From positions 1 through 50,695 of the forward strand of contig JAICGZ010000008.1 in assembly GCA_025922875.1 (NCBI GenBank): a stretch of DNA of 50,695 nt. The letters are read 5' to 3'. A program made the translations under genes and the position numbers. Shown piece by piece: positions 12,517 through 41,795 of this stretch (positions are counted from its first letter, which is position 1; every line of letters begins with the position of its first letter). The DNA is from Pyrinomonadaceae bacterium. Its GTDB lineage: Bacteria > Acidobacteriota > Blastocatellia > Pyrinomonadales > Pyrinomonadaceae. Under the pieces are notes generated by a model. It was given only the letters and a program-made list of their open reading frames with translations. It made no database searches and was not told the origin of the DNA.

Positions 12517-12606
12517 ATTTGTAGGGGCGGCCACGGAGGGCCGCCCCTTCCACGAAATAATTGTGCGGCAAAACAGGGGCGGCCGCGGAGGGCCGCCCCT
12601 ACAAAT
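12517..12606. repeat. Double-hairpin GGGGCGGCC repeat element
   Basis: Outer arms ATTTGTAGGGGCGGCC (12517-12532) and GGCCGCCCCTACAAAT (12591-12606) are a perfect 16-bp inverted repeat. Inside it are two near-identical hairpins, AGGGGCGGCC/GGCCGCCCCT at 12523-12548 and 12575-12600. The same layout recurs at 32554-32629. It lies between dut and the M28 gene. Confidence 0.85.
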
Positions 12607-32397: not shown

Positions 32398-32553
32398 TGA
32401 AACGCCTACTGTAAAATAGACGCTCAAACGGTAAACTTTTCCACCAATCCGATGCACTGCTACTGATGCGACTCATCGTCTGCCGGTTTGCTTCGACGGG
32501 AGGTCTAACGCTCGAAAGTGCCCGTGGTTGCAATTTTACTCATTGGGCGCAAT

Positions 32554-32629
32554 TGTAGGGGCGGCCCACCGTGGCCGCCCGCCATTGATAAAACGAACGC
32601 ACGGGCGGCCACGGAGGGCCGTCCCTACA
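32554..32629. repeat. Double-hairpin GGGGCGGCC repeat element (second copy)
   Basis: Outer arms TGTAGGGGCGGCC (32554-32566) and GGCCGTCCCTACA (32617-32629) match at 12 of 13 positions. Two inner hairpins, GGGCGGCC/GGCCGCCC and GGGCGGCC/GGCCGTCC, repeat the layout found at 12517-12606. Confidence 0.8.
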
Positions 32630-32896
32630 GTTGTGACCGAGCAGGTTTAGACGTTTCCAGCACGAATTCCATACACCGCCGCTCCAAATATGTTTCGCAA
32701 CAAAATGGTTAACTTTTGTAAAGAGCAACTTTTAACTACTGGATAGGCTTCGTACTGCCGTTGGAACAGTGCTTGCCAAATCCTATCGCGTCGGCATGTC
32801 TTTTGTGCCTGGAATGCGAAGTCTTTGAAGACGATTGCCCGAAGATCGTCGGGAGCTCTCCCGAACATATTGATTTAAGCGATCCTGGAAAAAAGT

Positions 32897-35035
32897 ATGT
32901 CAACAGTTGTCAAACAACAAACCAGAATTCACGAATTCCCCAAGCGAGCGGAGATCGAGCCAGTCTCTTCGCGCTCACCCCTGTTTTTTAATCGCGAGCT
33001 AAGCCTGCTGGAGTTCCACGCGCGAGTTTTAGAGGAAGCGCTGGATGATCGAAACCCACTACTCGAGCGGCTGAAGTTTCTTTCGATTTTTTCCTCGAAC
33101 CTGGACGAATTTTTCATGATTCGTGTGTCCGGTCTCAAGGAAGAACTGGAACATAGCGTCAGTGTGGTTTCCGCCGACGGCCTGACTCCCGCAGAACAAC
33201 TAGCCAAAACGCGCGAGCGAGTCCTTGTTGTAGTCGAGGAGCAGGCTCGCTGTTTGCGCGATGAAGTCTTGCCGCAACTGAAAGAAGCGGGACTATCACT
33301 GATTCCCTACGAATCGTTGTCGCATCATGAGAAGGAAAGTCTTAAAGACTACTTCACGGAAAAGGTGTTTCCGGTACTGACCCCGCTGGCGGTCGATCCG
33401 AGTCACCCGTTTCCTTACATCTCTCCGCTCAGCGTCAACATCGGGTTGATGGTTCACGCACCGACCGGCGTGAGGTTTAAAGGACGGAGAAAACGCGAGG
33501 AGTCGCGGTTTGTGCGAATCAAGGTTCCGTCAGTCGTTCCACGATTGGTACCGATTGGTTCGTCCAAATCTCGCTTTGTGCTGCTCGAAGAGATTATTGA
33601 AGCGAACATCCAGACGCTCTTTCCTGGTATGAATCCCGGTCCTTGCCATCGTTTCCGCGTCACCCGCGATGCCGACATCGAGATCAGGGAGGAAGAAGCT
33701 GAAGATCTACTCAGTTTGATTCAGCAGGAACTGCGCAAGCGAAGGTTTGGTACGCCAGTGCGTCTGGAAATCTCTCCGGACATGCCGCCTGACATGGTCG
33801 AGTATTTGACCACTTCGCTCGACCTCGAACCAGACGACGTTTACGTTTTCGATGGTCCGCTCCACATTCAGGACCTGATGGAACTGTATGACTGCGATCG
33901 GCCTGACTTGAAAGACGCTCCTTTCACGCCATCAGTGCCCGAGTGGTACAACGAGCACGACACCATCTTCGACGCGATTCGAGAGAAGGATCGCATGCTG
34001 CATCACCCGTACGATTCTTACGAGTGTGTAACCGGGTTCATCAACCAGGCGGTTGAAGATCCGGATGTCGTTGCCATCAAGATCTGTCTCTACCGGACTG
34101 GTCCGGAGTCACCAATTCCGCCGGCATTGATCAGGGCCAGCGAGCAGGGCAAACAGGTCACAGCTCTCATCGAGTTAAAAGCTCGCTTCGATGAGGAACA
34201 CAACATCGAGTGGGCTCGCAAGCTGGATGAGGCGGGCGTGCACGTGGTCTATGGCATATTGGGTCTGAAAACTCACGGCAAGCTCACGCTCGTGATCAGG
34301 CGCGAAGGTGACGCACTTAAACGCTACGTCCATATCGCCTCCGGTAACTACAATCCGACAACCTCGTGTACTTACACGGATATCGGACTGTTTACCGCGG
34401 ACGACGAAGTCGGACGAGACGCCACTGAACTCTTCAACTACCTGACCGGCTTCTCGGAACAAATAGAATATCGAAAACTGATGGTGGCGCCGGTGAATAT
34501 GCGCGAGAAACTGAACGCGCTCTTTGATCGTGAGATAGCACACAAGCGCGCGGGACGGCCGGCACATATCATCGCGAAGTTTAATCGTCTCGCAGACCTG
34601 CAAGTTATCGAGAAGCTTTACGAGGTTTCGCGGGCTGGCGTGCAGGTGGATCTGATCGTGCGAGGTATCTGCACGTTGCGTCCGGGCATCCCTGGCTTGT
34701 CAGAGAACATCACGGTGCGCAGCGTGGTCGGACGCTTTCTCGAGCACAGCCGCGTATTTTGGTTTTCAAATGGCGGTGACGATGAAGTCTACATCGGCAG
34801 TGCCGACTGGATGGCTCGAAATCTGAAACACCGGATCGAGGTAGTTGCGCCGGTAATTAATTCAAAGTCGAAACGCTATCTGAGGGACGTGTTACTTGAT
34901 GCGTACCTCACCGACAATACAAAGGCGCGTGAGCTACAACCCGATGGAAGCTACGCTCCGATTGCGCGCGGCGCCGAATCGTTCGGCGACTCGTTTGATA
35001 GCCAGGTCTATTTCATCGGGCACTCGATCGACTAA
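32897..35035 (+). CDS. ppk1: Polyphosphate kinase 1
   Basis: Transfers the terminal phosphate of ATP to inorganic polyphosphate, reversibly, at the inner face of the membrane. The full-length protein of 712 residues has the N-terminal domain (N-R-E-L-S-L-L-E-F-H-A-R-V-L-E), the head domain and the two phospholipase-D-like C-terminal domains. The autophosphorylated His is H460 in K-T-H-G-K-L-T-L. Further family motifs are Y-V-H-I-A-S-G-N-Y-N, R-G-I-C-T-L-R-P-G and E-H-S-R-V-F-W-F. The start ATG at 32897 has G-G-A-A-A-A-A-A-G upstream, a weak ribosome binding site. The genes for a kinase-like secreted protein and DUF4956 follow on the same strand. Confidence 0.97.
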   Translation: MSTVVKQQTRIHEFPKRAEIEPVSSRSPLFFNRELSLLEFHARVLEEALDDRNPLLERLKFLSIFSSNLDEFFMIRVSGLKEELEHSVSVVSADGLTPAEQLAKTRERVLVVVEEQARCLRDEVLPQLKEAGLSLIPYESLSHHEKESLKDYFTEKVFPVLTPLAVDPSHPFPYISPLSVNIGLMVHAPTGVRFKGRRKREESRFVRIKVPSVVPRLVPIGSSKSRFVLLEEIIEANIQTLFPGMNPGPCHRFRVTRDADIEIREEEAEDLLSLIQQELRKRRFGTPVRLEISPDMPPDMVEYLTTSLDLEPDDVYVFDGPLHIQDLMELYDCDRPDLKDAPFTPSVPEWYNEHDTIFDAIREKDRMLHHPYDSYECVTGFINQAVEDPDVVAIKICLYRTGPESPIPPALIRASEQGKQVTALIELKARFDEEHNIEWARKLDEAGVHVVYGILGLKTHGKLTLVIRREGDALKRYVHIASGNYNPTTSCTYTDIGLFTADDEVGRDATELFNYLTGFSEQIEYRKLMVAPVNMREKLNALFDREIAHKRAGRPAHIIAKFNRLADLQVIEKLYEVSRAGVQVDLIVRGICTLRPGIPGLSENITVRSVVGRFLEHSRVFWFSNGGDDEVYIGSADWMARNLKHRIEVVAPVINSKSKRYLRDVLLDAYLTDNTKARELQPDGSYAPIARGAESFGDSFDSQVYFIGHSID

Positions 35036-35038
35036 CTA

Positions 35039-35076
35039 CAGGATTACAGGAATTCAGCACTGAACCTGTAATCCTG
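35039..35076 (+). terminator. Hairpin after ppk1
   Basis: CAGGATTACAGG (35039-35050) and CCTGTAATCCTG (35065-35076) form a perfect 12-bp stem, with an additional TTCAG/CTGAA pairing inside the loop. It starts 3 bases after the ppk1 stop and would make an attenuator or terminator before the next gene; no T-run follows. Confidence 0.7.
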
Positions 35077-35134
35077 CCCCGACATCCCTCTCCCTCGGCA
35101 CCCCCAGGCAGCACTTCTAGCGGCGGAGAGAACA

Positions 35135-36109
35135 ATGCACAAAACAAAGAAGCTTCGAATGCTGGTTCTGCTGGCATTACTGGTAAGCCTCACCTCGATT
35201 GATACCGGTCTCGCTAAATCCAAAAAGAAGAAAGCGGTTCCGACTGGAACGCCGATTCTTTGGCAGCGACCGGCCGACATTTCATCGCGCGATCTTTTCC
35301 TCGGCCCTGGCGGCGCGGCGATGCGTCCCGATCTGCGGCGCATCACGTTTATCAAAGAGCAGAAGGGCGGCTACTCGAAAAAGTTTGAAGTGCGCGATGG
35401 TTCGGGTCGCACGTGGGTTGTGAAGATCGGTAAAGAAGCTCAATCGGAAACGTCGGCGATCAGATTGCTTTGGGGCGTAGGCTATCTAACAGAAGTCAAC
35501 TATCTCGTGCCGCGCGTCACGATTCCCGGTAAAGGAACTTTTAGAAACGTCAGGTTCGAAGCACGTCCGGACAACTGGAAACGAGTTGGCGAATGGAAGT
35601 GGAAAAAGAATCCGTTTACCAACACCACGGAGTTTCAGGGGTTGAAGATCATGATGGCGCTGATCAACAACTGGGACTTGAAAGACTCCAACAACGAGAT
35701 CCTCCAGGTTCGCGGAGATAACGGCAACGAACTGCGATACATCATCAGCGATCTTGGCGCCACTTTCGGACATGCAAGCACGACCCCAATCTTATGGCGT
35801 CTGACGAGAAGTCGTAACAATCCAGCCAAATTTGCAAAGTCAAATTTCCTGGAGAAGGTTAAGGGCGATCGTGTCGTGCTGCATTTTGGTGGAAAGAACC
35901 GCGGCATCATGAAAGATATCGATGTTCAGGATGCGCAATGGATGGGTAGCTGGCTCGCGCAACTAAGCGACCACCAGCTCCGTGATGCATTCCGCGCAGC
36001 GAACTATAGACCCGATCAGATCAATTTACTTGTGCGGGCAGTGCGAGATCGCACCAATGAGCTTCTCAGTCTGCGGCCAAACGTGCACATCGGCAGAGGC
36101 GGTAATTAG
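35135..36109 (+). CDS. Secreted protein with protein-kinase-like motifs
   Basis: A 324-residue protein with a clear signal peptide (about 9-27, G-L-A/K-S) and a GGAGAG ribosome binding site. After a lysine-rich stretch it shows, in order and with kinase-like spacing, K97 in W-V-V-K-I-G, E105, D181-L-K183-D-S-N186 (like the catalytic loop D-x-K-x-x-N) and D206-L-G (like the metal-binding DFG). This suggests an extracytoplasmic kinase of an atypical, possibly HipA- or CotH/FAM20-like, lineage. I do not recognise a named family, and the fold is inferred from these four motifs only. It lies 6 nt before the DUF4956 gene and just after ppk1, which hints at a role in polyphosphate or cell-surface phosphorylation. 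Confidence 0.75.
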   Translation: MHKTKKLRMLVLLALLVSLTSIDTGLAKSKKKKAVPTGTPILWQRPADISSRDLFLGPGGAAMRPDLRRITFIKEQKGGYSKKFEVRDGSGRTWVVKIGKEAQSETSAIRLLWGVGYLTEVNYLVPRVTIPGKGTFRNVRFEARPDNWKRVGEWKWKKNPFTNTTEFQGLKIMMALINNWDLKDSNNEILQVRGDNGNELRYIISDLGATFGHASTTPILWRLTRSRNNPAKFAKSNFLEKVKGDRVVLHFGGKNRGIMKDIDVQDAQWMGSWLAQLSDHQLRDAFRAANYRPDQINLLVRAVRDRTNELLSLRPNVHIGRGGN

Positions 36110-36114
36110 TTCTA

Positions 36115-37068
36115 ATGGCGAGTCAAAGGCGAAAGGAAATATTCACGCTTGTAGTAGTGTTTGCCGGAGTACTGCTGATCACTGCGCTGGCAGTTTACTA
36201 CCTCGGTGGCGGCAGGCGCGCCACTCCGGAAACAATCAGACAGGAAGGTCGACAGCCTGATGCAGTGCTCGAAGCGCCCATGGAACGCGCCTCACCGGTT
36301 CCAGCGGAACGCACCTCAGCAACACCGCAGAATTTGGAAGGTGAGACTTTTGTAGATCGATTATTCGGCACACGACACAGCGAGCCAGACTTTGGCGGTG
36401 CGACGTGGGTCGAAACGATGGGAAAAATCTCACTGCGGCTTTTTTTCGCTGCGGCGCTGGGAGCCGCTCTTGCCTTTCGCCCACGCAAACGAATTCTTGC
36501 GCTCAAGCGCAATCCTTACGTTTCGCAAACGCAGATACTACTCGCCATCGTCGCGGCAGCCCTGATGATGATCGTCGGCGACAATGCGGCACGCGCGTTT
36601 GGTATCTTCGCCGCGGTTTCGCTCGTGCGATTTCGCACCAACATCCGCGACCCGAAAGAGATCACGGTGCTGTTGATTAGTCTTGCTGTGGGTCTGGCTT
36701 CGGGAGTCGGTCGGTGGGATCTGGCGCTTGTGCTCGCGCTGTTCTCGTTAACTGTGCTCTGGTTGTTGGAATGGCGTGAACCGGAGTTGGTATTTCGCTC
36801 AATGGAGTTGAAGATAACAACTATGAATGTGGCCTCAACGCAGCAGGCCCTGAAGCAAGTGTTCAAGCAGCATGGTTTCGATAAGGAATTCCGCGCTATG
36901 GAACGTAAAGCAGCCGAGGACTCGCCCGGGAGCATTGTGTATGCAGTTGACGTGAGTCCGACCGTGAGTACCGACGACATTAGCGCGGATATCCTCGCCA
37001 TCGACGGCCTGAACGTACAGGGGATTGAGTGGGATCAGAAGAAGAGTTATTCGTACCTGTATCAGTAA
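36115..37068 (+). CDS. DUF4956 family membrane protein
   Basis: A 317-residue protein: one N-terminal transmembrane helix (about 10-30), a proline-rich periplasmic linker, then a cluster of helices (about 100-225), and a soluble C-terminal domain of about 85 residues. The motifs R-P-R-K-R, R-T-N-I-R-D-P-K-E-I and L-V-R-F-R-T fit the DUF4956 core. In other bacteria DUF4956 genes lie beside VTC-type polyphosphate polymerases and CotH kinases; here the neighbours are ppk1 and the kinase-like secreted protein. Function unknown; a channel or scaffold for polyphosphate export is one possibility. A palindrome separates it from the convergent lon. Confidence 0.88.
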   Translation: MASQRRKEIFTLVVVFAGVLLITALAVYYLGGGRRATPETIRQEGRQPDAVLEAPMERASPVPAERTSATPQNLEGETFVDRLFGTRHSEPDFGGATWVETMGKISLRLFFAAALGAALAFRPRKRILALKRNPYVSQTQILLAIVAAALMMIVGDNAARAFGIFAAVSLVRFRTNIRDPKEITVLLISLAVGLASGVGRWDLALVLALFSLTVLWLLEWREPELVFRSMELKITTMNVASTQQALKQVFKQHGFDKEFRAMERKAAEDSPGSIVYAVDVSPTVSTDDISADILAIDGLNVQGIEWDQKKSYSYLYQ

Positions 37069-37076
37069 CTAAAAAA

Positions 37077-37126
37077 CCACGGATTACACGGATGAAATTC
37101 GCGGATTTTATCCGTGCAATCCGTGG
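37077..37126. terminator. Palindrome between convergent DUF4956 and lon genes
   Basis: CCACGGATTACACGGAT (37077-37093) pairs with ATCCGTGCAATCCGTGG (37110-37126) at 16 of 17 positions. It follows an A-run and ends 1 base before the lon stop codon, so it suits a bidirectional terminator. Best copy of the CACGGATTACACGGA family in this window. Confidence 0.75.
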
Positions 37127-37127
37127 C

Positions 37128-41681: not shown

Positions 41682-41795
41682 TTGTTTCGCGCAAAGGCGC
41701 AAAGTCCACGCAAAGCCGCAAAAAAAAGCCGCTGGTTATTTTAATTAGCTTTCCTTTGCGGCTTTGCGTGGACTTTGCGCCTTTGCGCGAAACAA
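41682..41795. repeat. Perfect 41-bp inverted repeat, GCGCAAAG family
   Basis: The left arm 41682-41722 (begins TTGTTTCGCGCAAAGG) and right arm 41755-41795 are perfect reverse complements over 41 positions, with a 32-nt loop. It is the longest palindrome seen in the window and, unlike the others, lies in a divergent promoter region. Confidence 0.95.

Follow-up and report, generated by a model that had tools for sequence, protein, structure and literature searches.

A ppk1, kinase-like and DUF4956 gene set in a Pyrinomonadaceae bacterium as a putative envelope phosphotransfer module

Do a polyphosphate-making enzyme, a secreted kinase-like protein and a DUF4956 membrane protein that are encoded side by side work together, and if so, at what? 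As an earlier note on this DNA described, three such genes follow one another on the plus strand of the window, by which we mean the whole 50,695-nucleotide stretch of a Pyrinomonadaceae genome that was analysed (Table 1). The note put 6 nt between the last two genes, a figure corrected here to 5 nt (36110-36114). The gap of 99 nt between ppk1 and the gene for the kinase-like protein (K) contains a strong hairpin (RNA fold, -21 kcal/mol, z -6.75; equally stable in 0 of 200 shuffles), and promoter-like and terminator-like sites showed no clear excess over shuffled DNA. According to excerpts of PMC7112168, streptococci and clostridia carry genes encoding CotH, a poly-phosphate polymerase, DUF4956 and DUF4832 next to their pel genes. 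The window set resembles these CotH-VTC-DUF4956 accessory genes in that DUF4956, a polyphosphate-making enzyme and a secreted kinase-like protein are adjacent, but it differs in having PPK1 instead of VTC, as well as K, which has no detectable sequence relation to CotH. The source genome contains no VTC match and no CotH match.

Table 1. Positions of the genes and sequence features of the set in the window
Feature	Coordinates	Strand	Basis or remark
ppk1, polyphosphate kinase 1, 712 aa	32897..35035	+	PPK domain models, TIGR03705, PPK1 structure alignment
Hairpin in the ppk1-K gap	35039..35076	+	RNA fold; 12 bp + 4 bp stem, without T tail
K, secreted kinase-like protein, 324 aa	35135..36109	+	Family without Pfam or NCBIfam model
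Signal-peptide-like N-terminal segment of K, residues 1-28	35135..35218	+	Simple hydropathy
K97/E101/E105 of K, VAIK-like Lys then Glu	35423..35449	+	K alignment
D181-x-K183-x-x-N186 of K, catalytic-loop-like	35675..35692	+	K alignment
D206-L-G208 of K, DFG-like	35750..35758	+	K alignment
DUF4956 membrane protein, 317 aa	36115..37068	+	PF16316 above cut-off
DUF4956 model match	36526..36858	+	46.5 bits

The three proteins of the set

The ppk1 product exceeds the curated cut-offs of PF13089, PF02503, PF17941 and PF13090 in Pfam and of poly_P_kin (TIGR03705, 859 bits) in NCBIfam, and its residues 29-692 align with 9uuh, a PPK1 of known structure. The two HKD-type histidine motifs are retained in this alignment, which pairs the HGK and HSR motifs as well as the LYR and ARFDEE stretches; we take their histidines and arginines to be active-site residues. 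Enzymes of the PPK1 family make polyphosphate from ATP in the cytosol, and simple hydropathy finds no hydrophobic segment in the window protein. Thus full-length and with its motifs retained, the enzyme resembles other PPK1s; it differs in its membership of a K-linked clade, as one branch of the PPK1 tree holds all 11 K-linked copies, the window copy included, plus a single unlinked one. By comparison, K, DUF4956, PLD-like, VTC and CotH genes were found at 0 of 20 control PPK1 loci within the fetched DNA (3.9-15 kb each), the controls being hand-chosen, mostly from the same family and class, among the 166 of 297 phylum genomes that contain PPK1. K relatives occur in 37 of the 297, and PPK1 lies within 2.5 kb at 7 of 65 K loci taken from whole genomes.

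That the 324-residue protein K is secreted and kinase-like, as the earlier note held, is supported by an N-terminal hydrophobic segment and by conserved catalytic-type residues. The segment spans residues 9-27, and simple hydropathy places one before ORF residue 150 in 99 of 102 K ORFs. Two fusions within single ORFs likewise point to a location outside the cytosol: in one, an Omp85 barrel is joined to a K domain (L275, the same place as L130 and L064), and in the other, a PAP2 phosphatase is (L272). Lys97, Glu101, Asp181, Asp206 and Gly208 are invariant in the 134 filled rows of the K alignment; residue 105 is Glu in 131 rows and Asp in 3, residue 183 is Lys in 113 and Arg in 4, and residue 186 is Asn in 121 and Gln in 10. 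A strict five-residue test (K97, D181, K/R183, N/Q186, D206) is passed by 115 of 135 rows, and the 20 failures comprise one fragment and otherwise only changes at residue 183 or 186. The conserved Lys, Glu, Asp-x-Lys-x-x-Asn and Asp-x-Gly match the order of these elements in kinase active sites, a protein-kinase-like layout from which we infer a kinase fold. It is improbable, in our judgement, that K has a non-kinase fold sharing these motifs by accident: such a fold would fit the lack of a significant match to known-kinase profiles in Pfam, NCBIfam and the PDB (searched with K and two K alignments) and the replacement of Lys97 by Gln and Ser in the two most divergent relatives (L268 and L269), but it sits poorly with five catalytic-type residues that never vary across the aligned family and with a Lys183 and Asn186 that are mostly retained.

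K appears to be a secreted kinase-like protein of a new type, and the copies of Pfam and NCBIfam consulted contain no model for its family. The window protein matches nothing in either collection and has no accepted PDB match. Four weak hits were taken as chance, namely PF24388 (E 0.002 at best, in 4 of 32 K members) and the PDB entries 8boz_A (E 0.28), 6a8m_A (E 0.69) and 5lec_A (E 0.0099, a designed repeat protein by name), while NCBIfam phosphatase rows for the K alignment were attributed to a single member that carries a fused PAP2 domain. The spore-coat protein kinase CotH (PF08757; structure 5jd9) is among the closest known parallels, as K is likewise predicted to be secreted and kinase-like and occupies the same slot beside DUF4956; its N..IY and D-L-(G/D) type motifs resemble those of K by eye only. 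The two nevertheless differ in sequence, the CotH model matching 0 of 32 scanned K members and hhalign returning no match (Probab 0.05 and 0.06 percent). No K was found in plasmids, phages or viral contigs.

The third protein matches the DUF4956 model PF16316 with 44.3 bits against a cut-off of 30.6. Simple hydropathy assigns it hydrophobic segments at residues 9-27, 141-159, 183-201 and 202-220 of 317, so that membrane segments are followed by a soluble C-terminal part. It also has a weak similarity to MgtC (PF02308, 26.1 bits, under the cut-off of 31.4), and this, together with a PPK1 that has no hydrophobic segment, is what one would expect of a cytosolic phosphate-balance module in which PPK1 acts with an MgtC-like phosphate or ATP sensor and K is an envelope sensor or a non-catalytic polyphosphate binder. 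We consider this unlikely, as the key catalytic-type residues persist throughout the K alignment, unlike in a pseudokinase, and DUF4956 elsewhere pairs with CotH, for which kinase activity has been published (excerpts of PMC7821199).

Linkage of K to DUF4956 within the family

The genome-neighbourhood check that the earlier note called for revealed conserved linkage. Among the 47 DUF4956 places in the family, 40 form the main count, and within 3.5 kb of DUF4956 these contain K at 33, PPK1 at 27, both at 24 and a phosphatase at 27; some of the 7 loci without K and the 13 without PPK1 lie at contig ends. When only the 22 loci flanked by 3.5 kb or more of DNA in each direction are considered, K is present at 19, PPK1 at 14, both at 12 and a phosphatase at 16. 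K is also present at each of six further places, which bring the coverage to 46 of the 47; PPK1 accompanies it at five of them (the window, L134, L142, L143 and L162), whereas L161 has K only. Single loci depart from the pattern: at L265, CotH stands in place of K beside DUF4956, and at L237, a PLD-labelled ORF lies 3.4 kb from DUF4956 in addition to PPK1.

The linkage of K and DUF4956 in the family is beyond chance. Of 119 family genomes, 41 have DUF4956, and 40 of these also have K, against 12 of the 78 genomes that lack DUF4956 (Fisher p 9e-20, in a test that ignores relatedness); in the 41st genome (G370), a more divergent K adjoins DUF4956 (L244). Once duplicate contigs are removed, 14 of the 52 K-DUF4956 pairs that share a strand show a 4-nt overlap between the two genes. 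The neighbourhood might instead be chance, or synteny of unrelated housekeeping genes, and the closest relatives (L037-L039) do share the flanking genes too. Such an explanation is nonetheless barely credible, as the set is retained in two conserved gene orders, ppk1-K-DUF4956 and K-ppk1-DUF4956, and the linkage of K to DUF4956 recurs in 8 families.

Partner exchange around DUF4956 across the phylum

In the phylum Acidobacteriota as a whole, the fixed member of the module is DUF4956, around which the partners change. In the phylum draw, 54 of 55 DUF4956 places were fetched and partners were counted within 4 kb; these counts omit L037-L041, whose contigs, to judge by their equal lengths, are those of L238, L231, L251, L239 and L241 in the overlapping family set, and the fragment row L187_1609, whereas the DUF4956 tree keeps all 60 rows. 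VTC and CotH, which the earlier note had given as neighbours of DUF4956 in other bacteria, were seen at 18 and 22 of the 54 loci, respectively, and all of VTC, DUF4956 and CotH at 14. The remaining polymerase neighbours are a PLD-like two-HKD protein (15 loci) and PPK1 (5), with none at 16; the other secreted neighbour is K (17 loci, in the 8 families), with none at 15; and 10 loci have no partner at all. No locus has two polymerase kinds among these 54, a rule to which the family locus L237 is an exception, and K and CotH never occur at one DUF4956 locus among the 60 phylum-set rows or the 40 family loci. On the DUF4956 tree, which has long branches and is midpoint-rooted only, three polymerase states require 2 changes and two kinase states require 3. 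The idea that PPK1 replaces VTC and K replaces CotH is therefore supported, since comparative genomics finds the partners of DUF4956 swapped for such alternatives.

The two-HKD protein, a candidate polymerase of about 300 aa that neighbours K in other families, was first labelled PPK1 by HMM and is a separate protein. It matches PLDc_2 (PF13091), as do PLD-superfamily two-HKD proteins, and NCBIfam adds similarity to DrmC, NucT and cardiolipin synthases. Its profile has its top match in the phospholipase 7e0m (2e-20), in pieces, and aligns with E. coli PPK1 (1xdo, 3e-14) in one continuous stretch that covers both C-terminal PPK1 domains, the catalytic core; it differs from PPK1 in having neither the N-terminal nor the middle domain. 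An Arg aligned to a PPK1 Arg, which we take to be Arg375, is Arg in all 41 filled rows of 46, but only one of eight scanned members (L109) passes a PPK domain cut-off. The PLD-labelled ORF at L122 lies 3.8 kb from DUF4956, has a membrane-anchor-like start and is probably a different enzyme; the class with both PLD and K numbers 7 with this locus and 6 without it.

Proposed function of the module

The retention of DUF4956 while a polymerase of three kinds and a secreted partner of two kinds are swapped suggests a joint function in polyphosphate making and extracytoplasmic phosphotransfer. We give about an even chance to the view that ppk1, K and DUF4956 act together as a single envelope module in which K is an exported phosphotransferase. 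Cytosolic PPK1 would make polyphosphate from ATP, and DUF4956 would be the membrane part that works with a polymerase of any kind, a role suggested by its co-inheritance with the polymerase kind; it probably anchors the polymerase and ties polyphosphate synthesis to the membrane or to transit across it. Exported K, in the slot of CotH, would be a phosphotransferase with a kinase fold and with a target outside the cytosol, and the phosphatase often encoded beside the set would reverse its modification; a phosphatase gene is absent beside the set in the window, though frequent at other loci. The module may serve polyphosphate export or extracellular phosphorylation. K has no set partner within 2.5 kb at 38 of 92 loci, some of them at contig ends, and therefore also works elsewhere.

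Published work on the pel-linked genes offers another reading, in which the module adjusts the matrix of an exported polysaccharide or of a biofilm, K, DUF4956 and the polymerase being regulators of its production or retention and polyphosphate a signal or matrix component, not the donor for K. In excerpts of PMC12345266, deletion of Streptococcus intermedius SIR_1592, which encodes an MgtC-type membrane domain plus an ACT domain and is probably the DUF4956 gene to judge from excerpts of PMC7112168, raises Pel and lowers aggregation, and deletion of the CotH-like SIR_1594 lowers both. The same excerpts describe aggregation that persists in mutants of the polymerase SIR_1593, with no drop reported, and state that the mechanism of such genes remains to be determined. 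Exopolysaccharide genes were also not noticed among the recurring neighbours of K, a weak point as it comes from sequence reading and few Pfam scans of single-linkage clusters at 92 loci (2.5 kb), where the 'metallophosphoesterase' cluster includes other small ORFs and had two members scanned, and the ABC ATPase was named by eye. We regard a matrix role as doubtful.

Returning to the envelope module, its trio, which some soil bacteria of the Acidobacteriota keep together, would mirror the known VTC/CotH gene trio with other parts, and this analogy hints at a way to phosphorylate outside the cell. A further step, which we put forward as a speculative and rather doubtful possibility, is that DUF4956 modules are extracytoplasmic kinase systems that run on polyphosphate, in which secreted CotH or K uses polyphosphate, not ATP, as its donor. 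VTC, PPK1 or the PPK1-core-like PLD protein would feed polyphosphate through or along DUF4956, and exported phosphatases would close the cycle. Excerpts of PMC7821199 pose as an open question where CotH obtains its ATP. The exchange of partners around DUF4956 makes the question of the phosphate donor directly testable, and if polyphosphate is indeed the donor, this would tell where secreted bacterial kinases obtain their phosphate.

The gene set in the window and its linkage in Pyrinomonadaceae

As the earlier note described, three plus-strand genes stand in a row in the window, encoding PPK1, a secreted kinase-like protein (K) and a DUF4956 protein; the spacing of the last two, there put at 6 nt, is 5 nt, and 99 nt separate ppk1 from K. 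Residues 29-692 of PPK1 can be aligned to a solved PPK1, and the HKD-type motifs are retained. The DUF4956 protein has a weak MgtC similarity in Pfam. K carries an N-terminal hydrophobic segment (residues 9-27) and matched no model in Pfam or NCBIfam and no PDB entry acceptably. The ppk1-K gap holds a hairpin (-21 kcal/mol, z -6.75; a 12-bp stem plus 4 bp, lacking a T tail) that is a possible RNA processing or attenuation element.

Features of the three-gene set in the window
Feature	Positions	Strand	Description
ppk1	32897-35035	+	passes four Pfam PPK models and NCBIfam poly_P_kin
Hairpin	35039-35076		in the ppk1-K gap
K	35135-36109	+	324 codons
DUF4956 gene	36115-37068	+	PF16316, 44.3 bits against a cut-off of 30.6

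A Lon-like gene, named by eye, ends 59 nt past DUF4956, and the PTP-like phosphatase gene that is typical of loci in this family is absent at 37069-37127. Intergenic inverted-repeat families of the GGGGCGGCC, CTTTGCGCCTTTGCG and CCACGGATTACACGGAT types occur at 12523-12606, 32545-32638, 41682-41795 and 37074-37098.

The co-occurrence of K with ppk1 and DUF4956, proposed as a neighborhood check in Acidobacteriota, proved to be conserved, with both partners present at 24 of the 40 DUF4956 loci from Pyrinomonadaceae. These loci are contained in 40 regions, 39 centered on DUF4956 places and one on a K cluster (L266), and within 3.5 kb of them K was found at 33, PPK1 at 27 and the phosphatase gene at 27. 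When only the 22 loci flanked on each side by 3.5 kb or more were counted, the numbers were 19 for K, 14 for PPK1, 12 for both and 16 for the phosphatase. K lacks a PPK1 neighbor in L229, L235, L241, L242 (twice), L243, L244, L249 and L264, and PPK1 lacks K in L256, L257 and L258, with K lying just past the 3.5-kb limit in L257. CotH is present and K absent in L265, no partner is seen in L259, and the phosphatase is the sole partner in L245 and L267, both at contig ends; L237 holds PPK1 plus a PLD-labelled ORF 3.4 kb from DUF4956. Six additional DUF4956 places in the family have K (6/6) and PPK1 (5/6), and one more place, G380:C673, lies outside the set.

Both ppk1-K-DUF4956 and K-ppk1-DUF4956 orders occur, and K overlaps DUF4956 by 4 nt in 14 of 52 same-strand pairs after removal of duplicate contigs. 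Eleven K-linked PPK1 genes form one clade with a single unlinked PPK1 (100/96), and the DNA fetched around 20 control PPK1 loci contains no K, DUF4956, PLD-like, VTC or CotH genes; genomes G038 and G114 each encode an additional unlinked PPK1. Wherever the phosphatase gene and DUF4956 occur together in the family (27/27 loci), the former is convergent and downstream. A hydrophobic N-terminal stretch is present in 27 of 28 phosphatase ORFs, and the two members scanned matched PF22741 and PF03162 in Pfam.

The window's genome contains a second DUF4956 gene, located on contig C213 (L134, 6575-10984) in a full K-ppk1-DUF4956 set with a phosphatase gene. The K protein of this set shares only 16 percent identity with K of the window, and the contig may be foreign because the assembly contamination is 4.9 percent. 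Both PPK1 matches in the genome fall within K/DUF4956 sets, and a protein search located three further K copies, on contigs C29, C135 and C407.

DUF4956 and its exchangeable partners

The module exchanges its partners around a hub, DUF4956. This gene was found at 55 places in 41 of 297 Acidobacteriota genomes, and neighbors within 4 kb were counted at 54 of them: VTC with CotH (14), VTC with neither CotH nor K (4), PLD-like with CotH (7), PLD-like with K (7, one doubtful, L122), PPK1 with K (5), K alone (5), CotH alone (1), PLD-like alone (1) and no partner (10). VTC occurs in 17 of the 297 genomes and by coordinates adjoins DUF4956 in all except G175 (16/17), and the search for CotH covered just the 41 DUF4956-bearing genomes, 25 of which have it. 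The suggestion that PPK1 and K replace VTC and CotH beside DUF4956 is therefore supported, as loci of both kinds exist in one phylum. No row among 60 in a DUF4956 tree has two polymerase kinds or K plus CotH; polymerase kind can be explained by two changes on the tree, the minimum for three states, and kinase kind by three. The window's DUF4956 belongs to a clade of 13 rows (99/99), comprising nine with PPK1/K, two with K only and two without partners. A separate clade of four partnerless rows (100/99; L173, L194, L195 and L197) has neighbors that, by eye, seem unrelated.

The PLD-like protein contains two HxK/R motifs, and 43 of its 49 ORFs lack a membrane-like segment. Its profile matched E. 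coli PPK1 (1xdo) in a single stretch over both C-terminal domains (E 3e-14), and one of eight members scanned (L109) passed the PP_kinase_C_1 cut-off. That it may be a PPK1-core-like enzyme filling the polymerase slot is a lead, because phospholipase 7e0m scores better (2e-20, in pieces) and further PLD families match too.

In the text excerpted from PMC7112168, genes beside pel genes include CotH, poly-phosphate polymerase, DUF4956 and DUF4832, and an excerpt of PMC2879425 places VTC-domain and CotH genes together in a Clostridium perfringens locus. Excerpts of PMC12345266 describe Streptococcus intermedius deletions and state that the authors' analyses did not detect the three-gene arrangement beyond the Pel locus. 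The literature searched yielded no publication on the ppk1-K-DUF4956 arrangement.

K as a kinase-like family

K is present in 37 of the 297 Acidobacteriota genomes (E 0.001, two near the limit) and in 52 of 119 Pyrinomonadaceae genomes (E 1e-10), and is absent from the plasmids, phages and viral contigs searched. When 28 highly diverse members were aligned (mean column identity 17 percent), G79, G116, D181, D206, G208 and G212 (window K numbering) were invariant, and K97 and K183 were among the columns with at least 90 percent conservation; L268 and L269, which diverge most, have Q and S at position 97. Across a different set of 134 filled rows, from which L268-L273 were left out, K97, E101, D181, D206 and G208 do not vary; position 105 has E (131 rows) or D (3), position 183 mostly K (113) or R (4), and position 186 mostly N (121) or Q (10). 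Protein kinases share a Lys / Glu / Asp-x-Lys-x-x-Asn / Asp-x-Gly motif set, and the conserved residues of K correspond to this set, so that K looks like a kinase. K is not classed as CotH, since profile comparison of the two found no match.

Within five genes of 92 K loci we observed PPK1 or PLD-like genes (47 loci), an ABC transporter ATPase identified by eye (33) that often adjoins K and the PLD-like gene (L044-L060, others), a cluster including metallophosphoesterases (26), DUF4956 (22) and the PTP-like phosphatase (21); at 38 loci, some of them next to a contig end, no other member of the module lies within 2.5 kb. A K domain is joined to an Omp85 outer-membrane barrel in a single 821-residue ORF (L275, 2230-4692; PF01103, 29.3 bits; L275, L130 and L064 are one place), and to a PAP2 phosphatase domain in a 741-residue ORF (L272, 2782-5004). 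These fusions, if they are not artefacts of assembly, would fit an extracytoplasmic role of K.

A possible route for phosphate

The module appears to be a variant of the known arrangement built on a new kinase-like family. In the likeliest mechanism, PPK1 makes polyphosphate, and DUF4956 would hold the polymerase at the membrane and may pass the polymer through, much as the eukaryotic VTC complex couples catalysis to membrane passage. Outside the cytosol, K would move phosphate onto an envelope target, and the phosphatase would take it off again. CotH has been assayed with ATP, the origin of which is called an unanswered question in an excerpt of PMC7821199; in the boldest and hypothetical reading of the present module, polyphosphate would be the phosphate donor of K.
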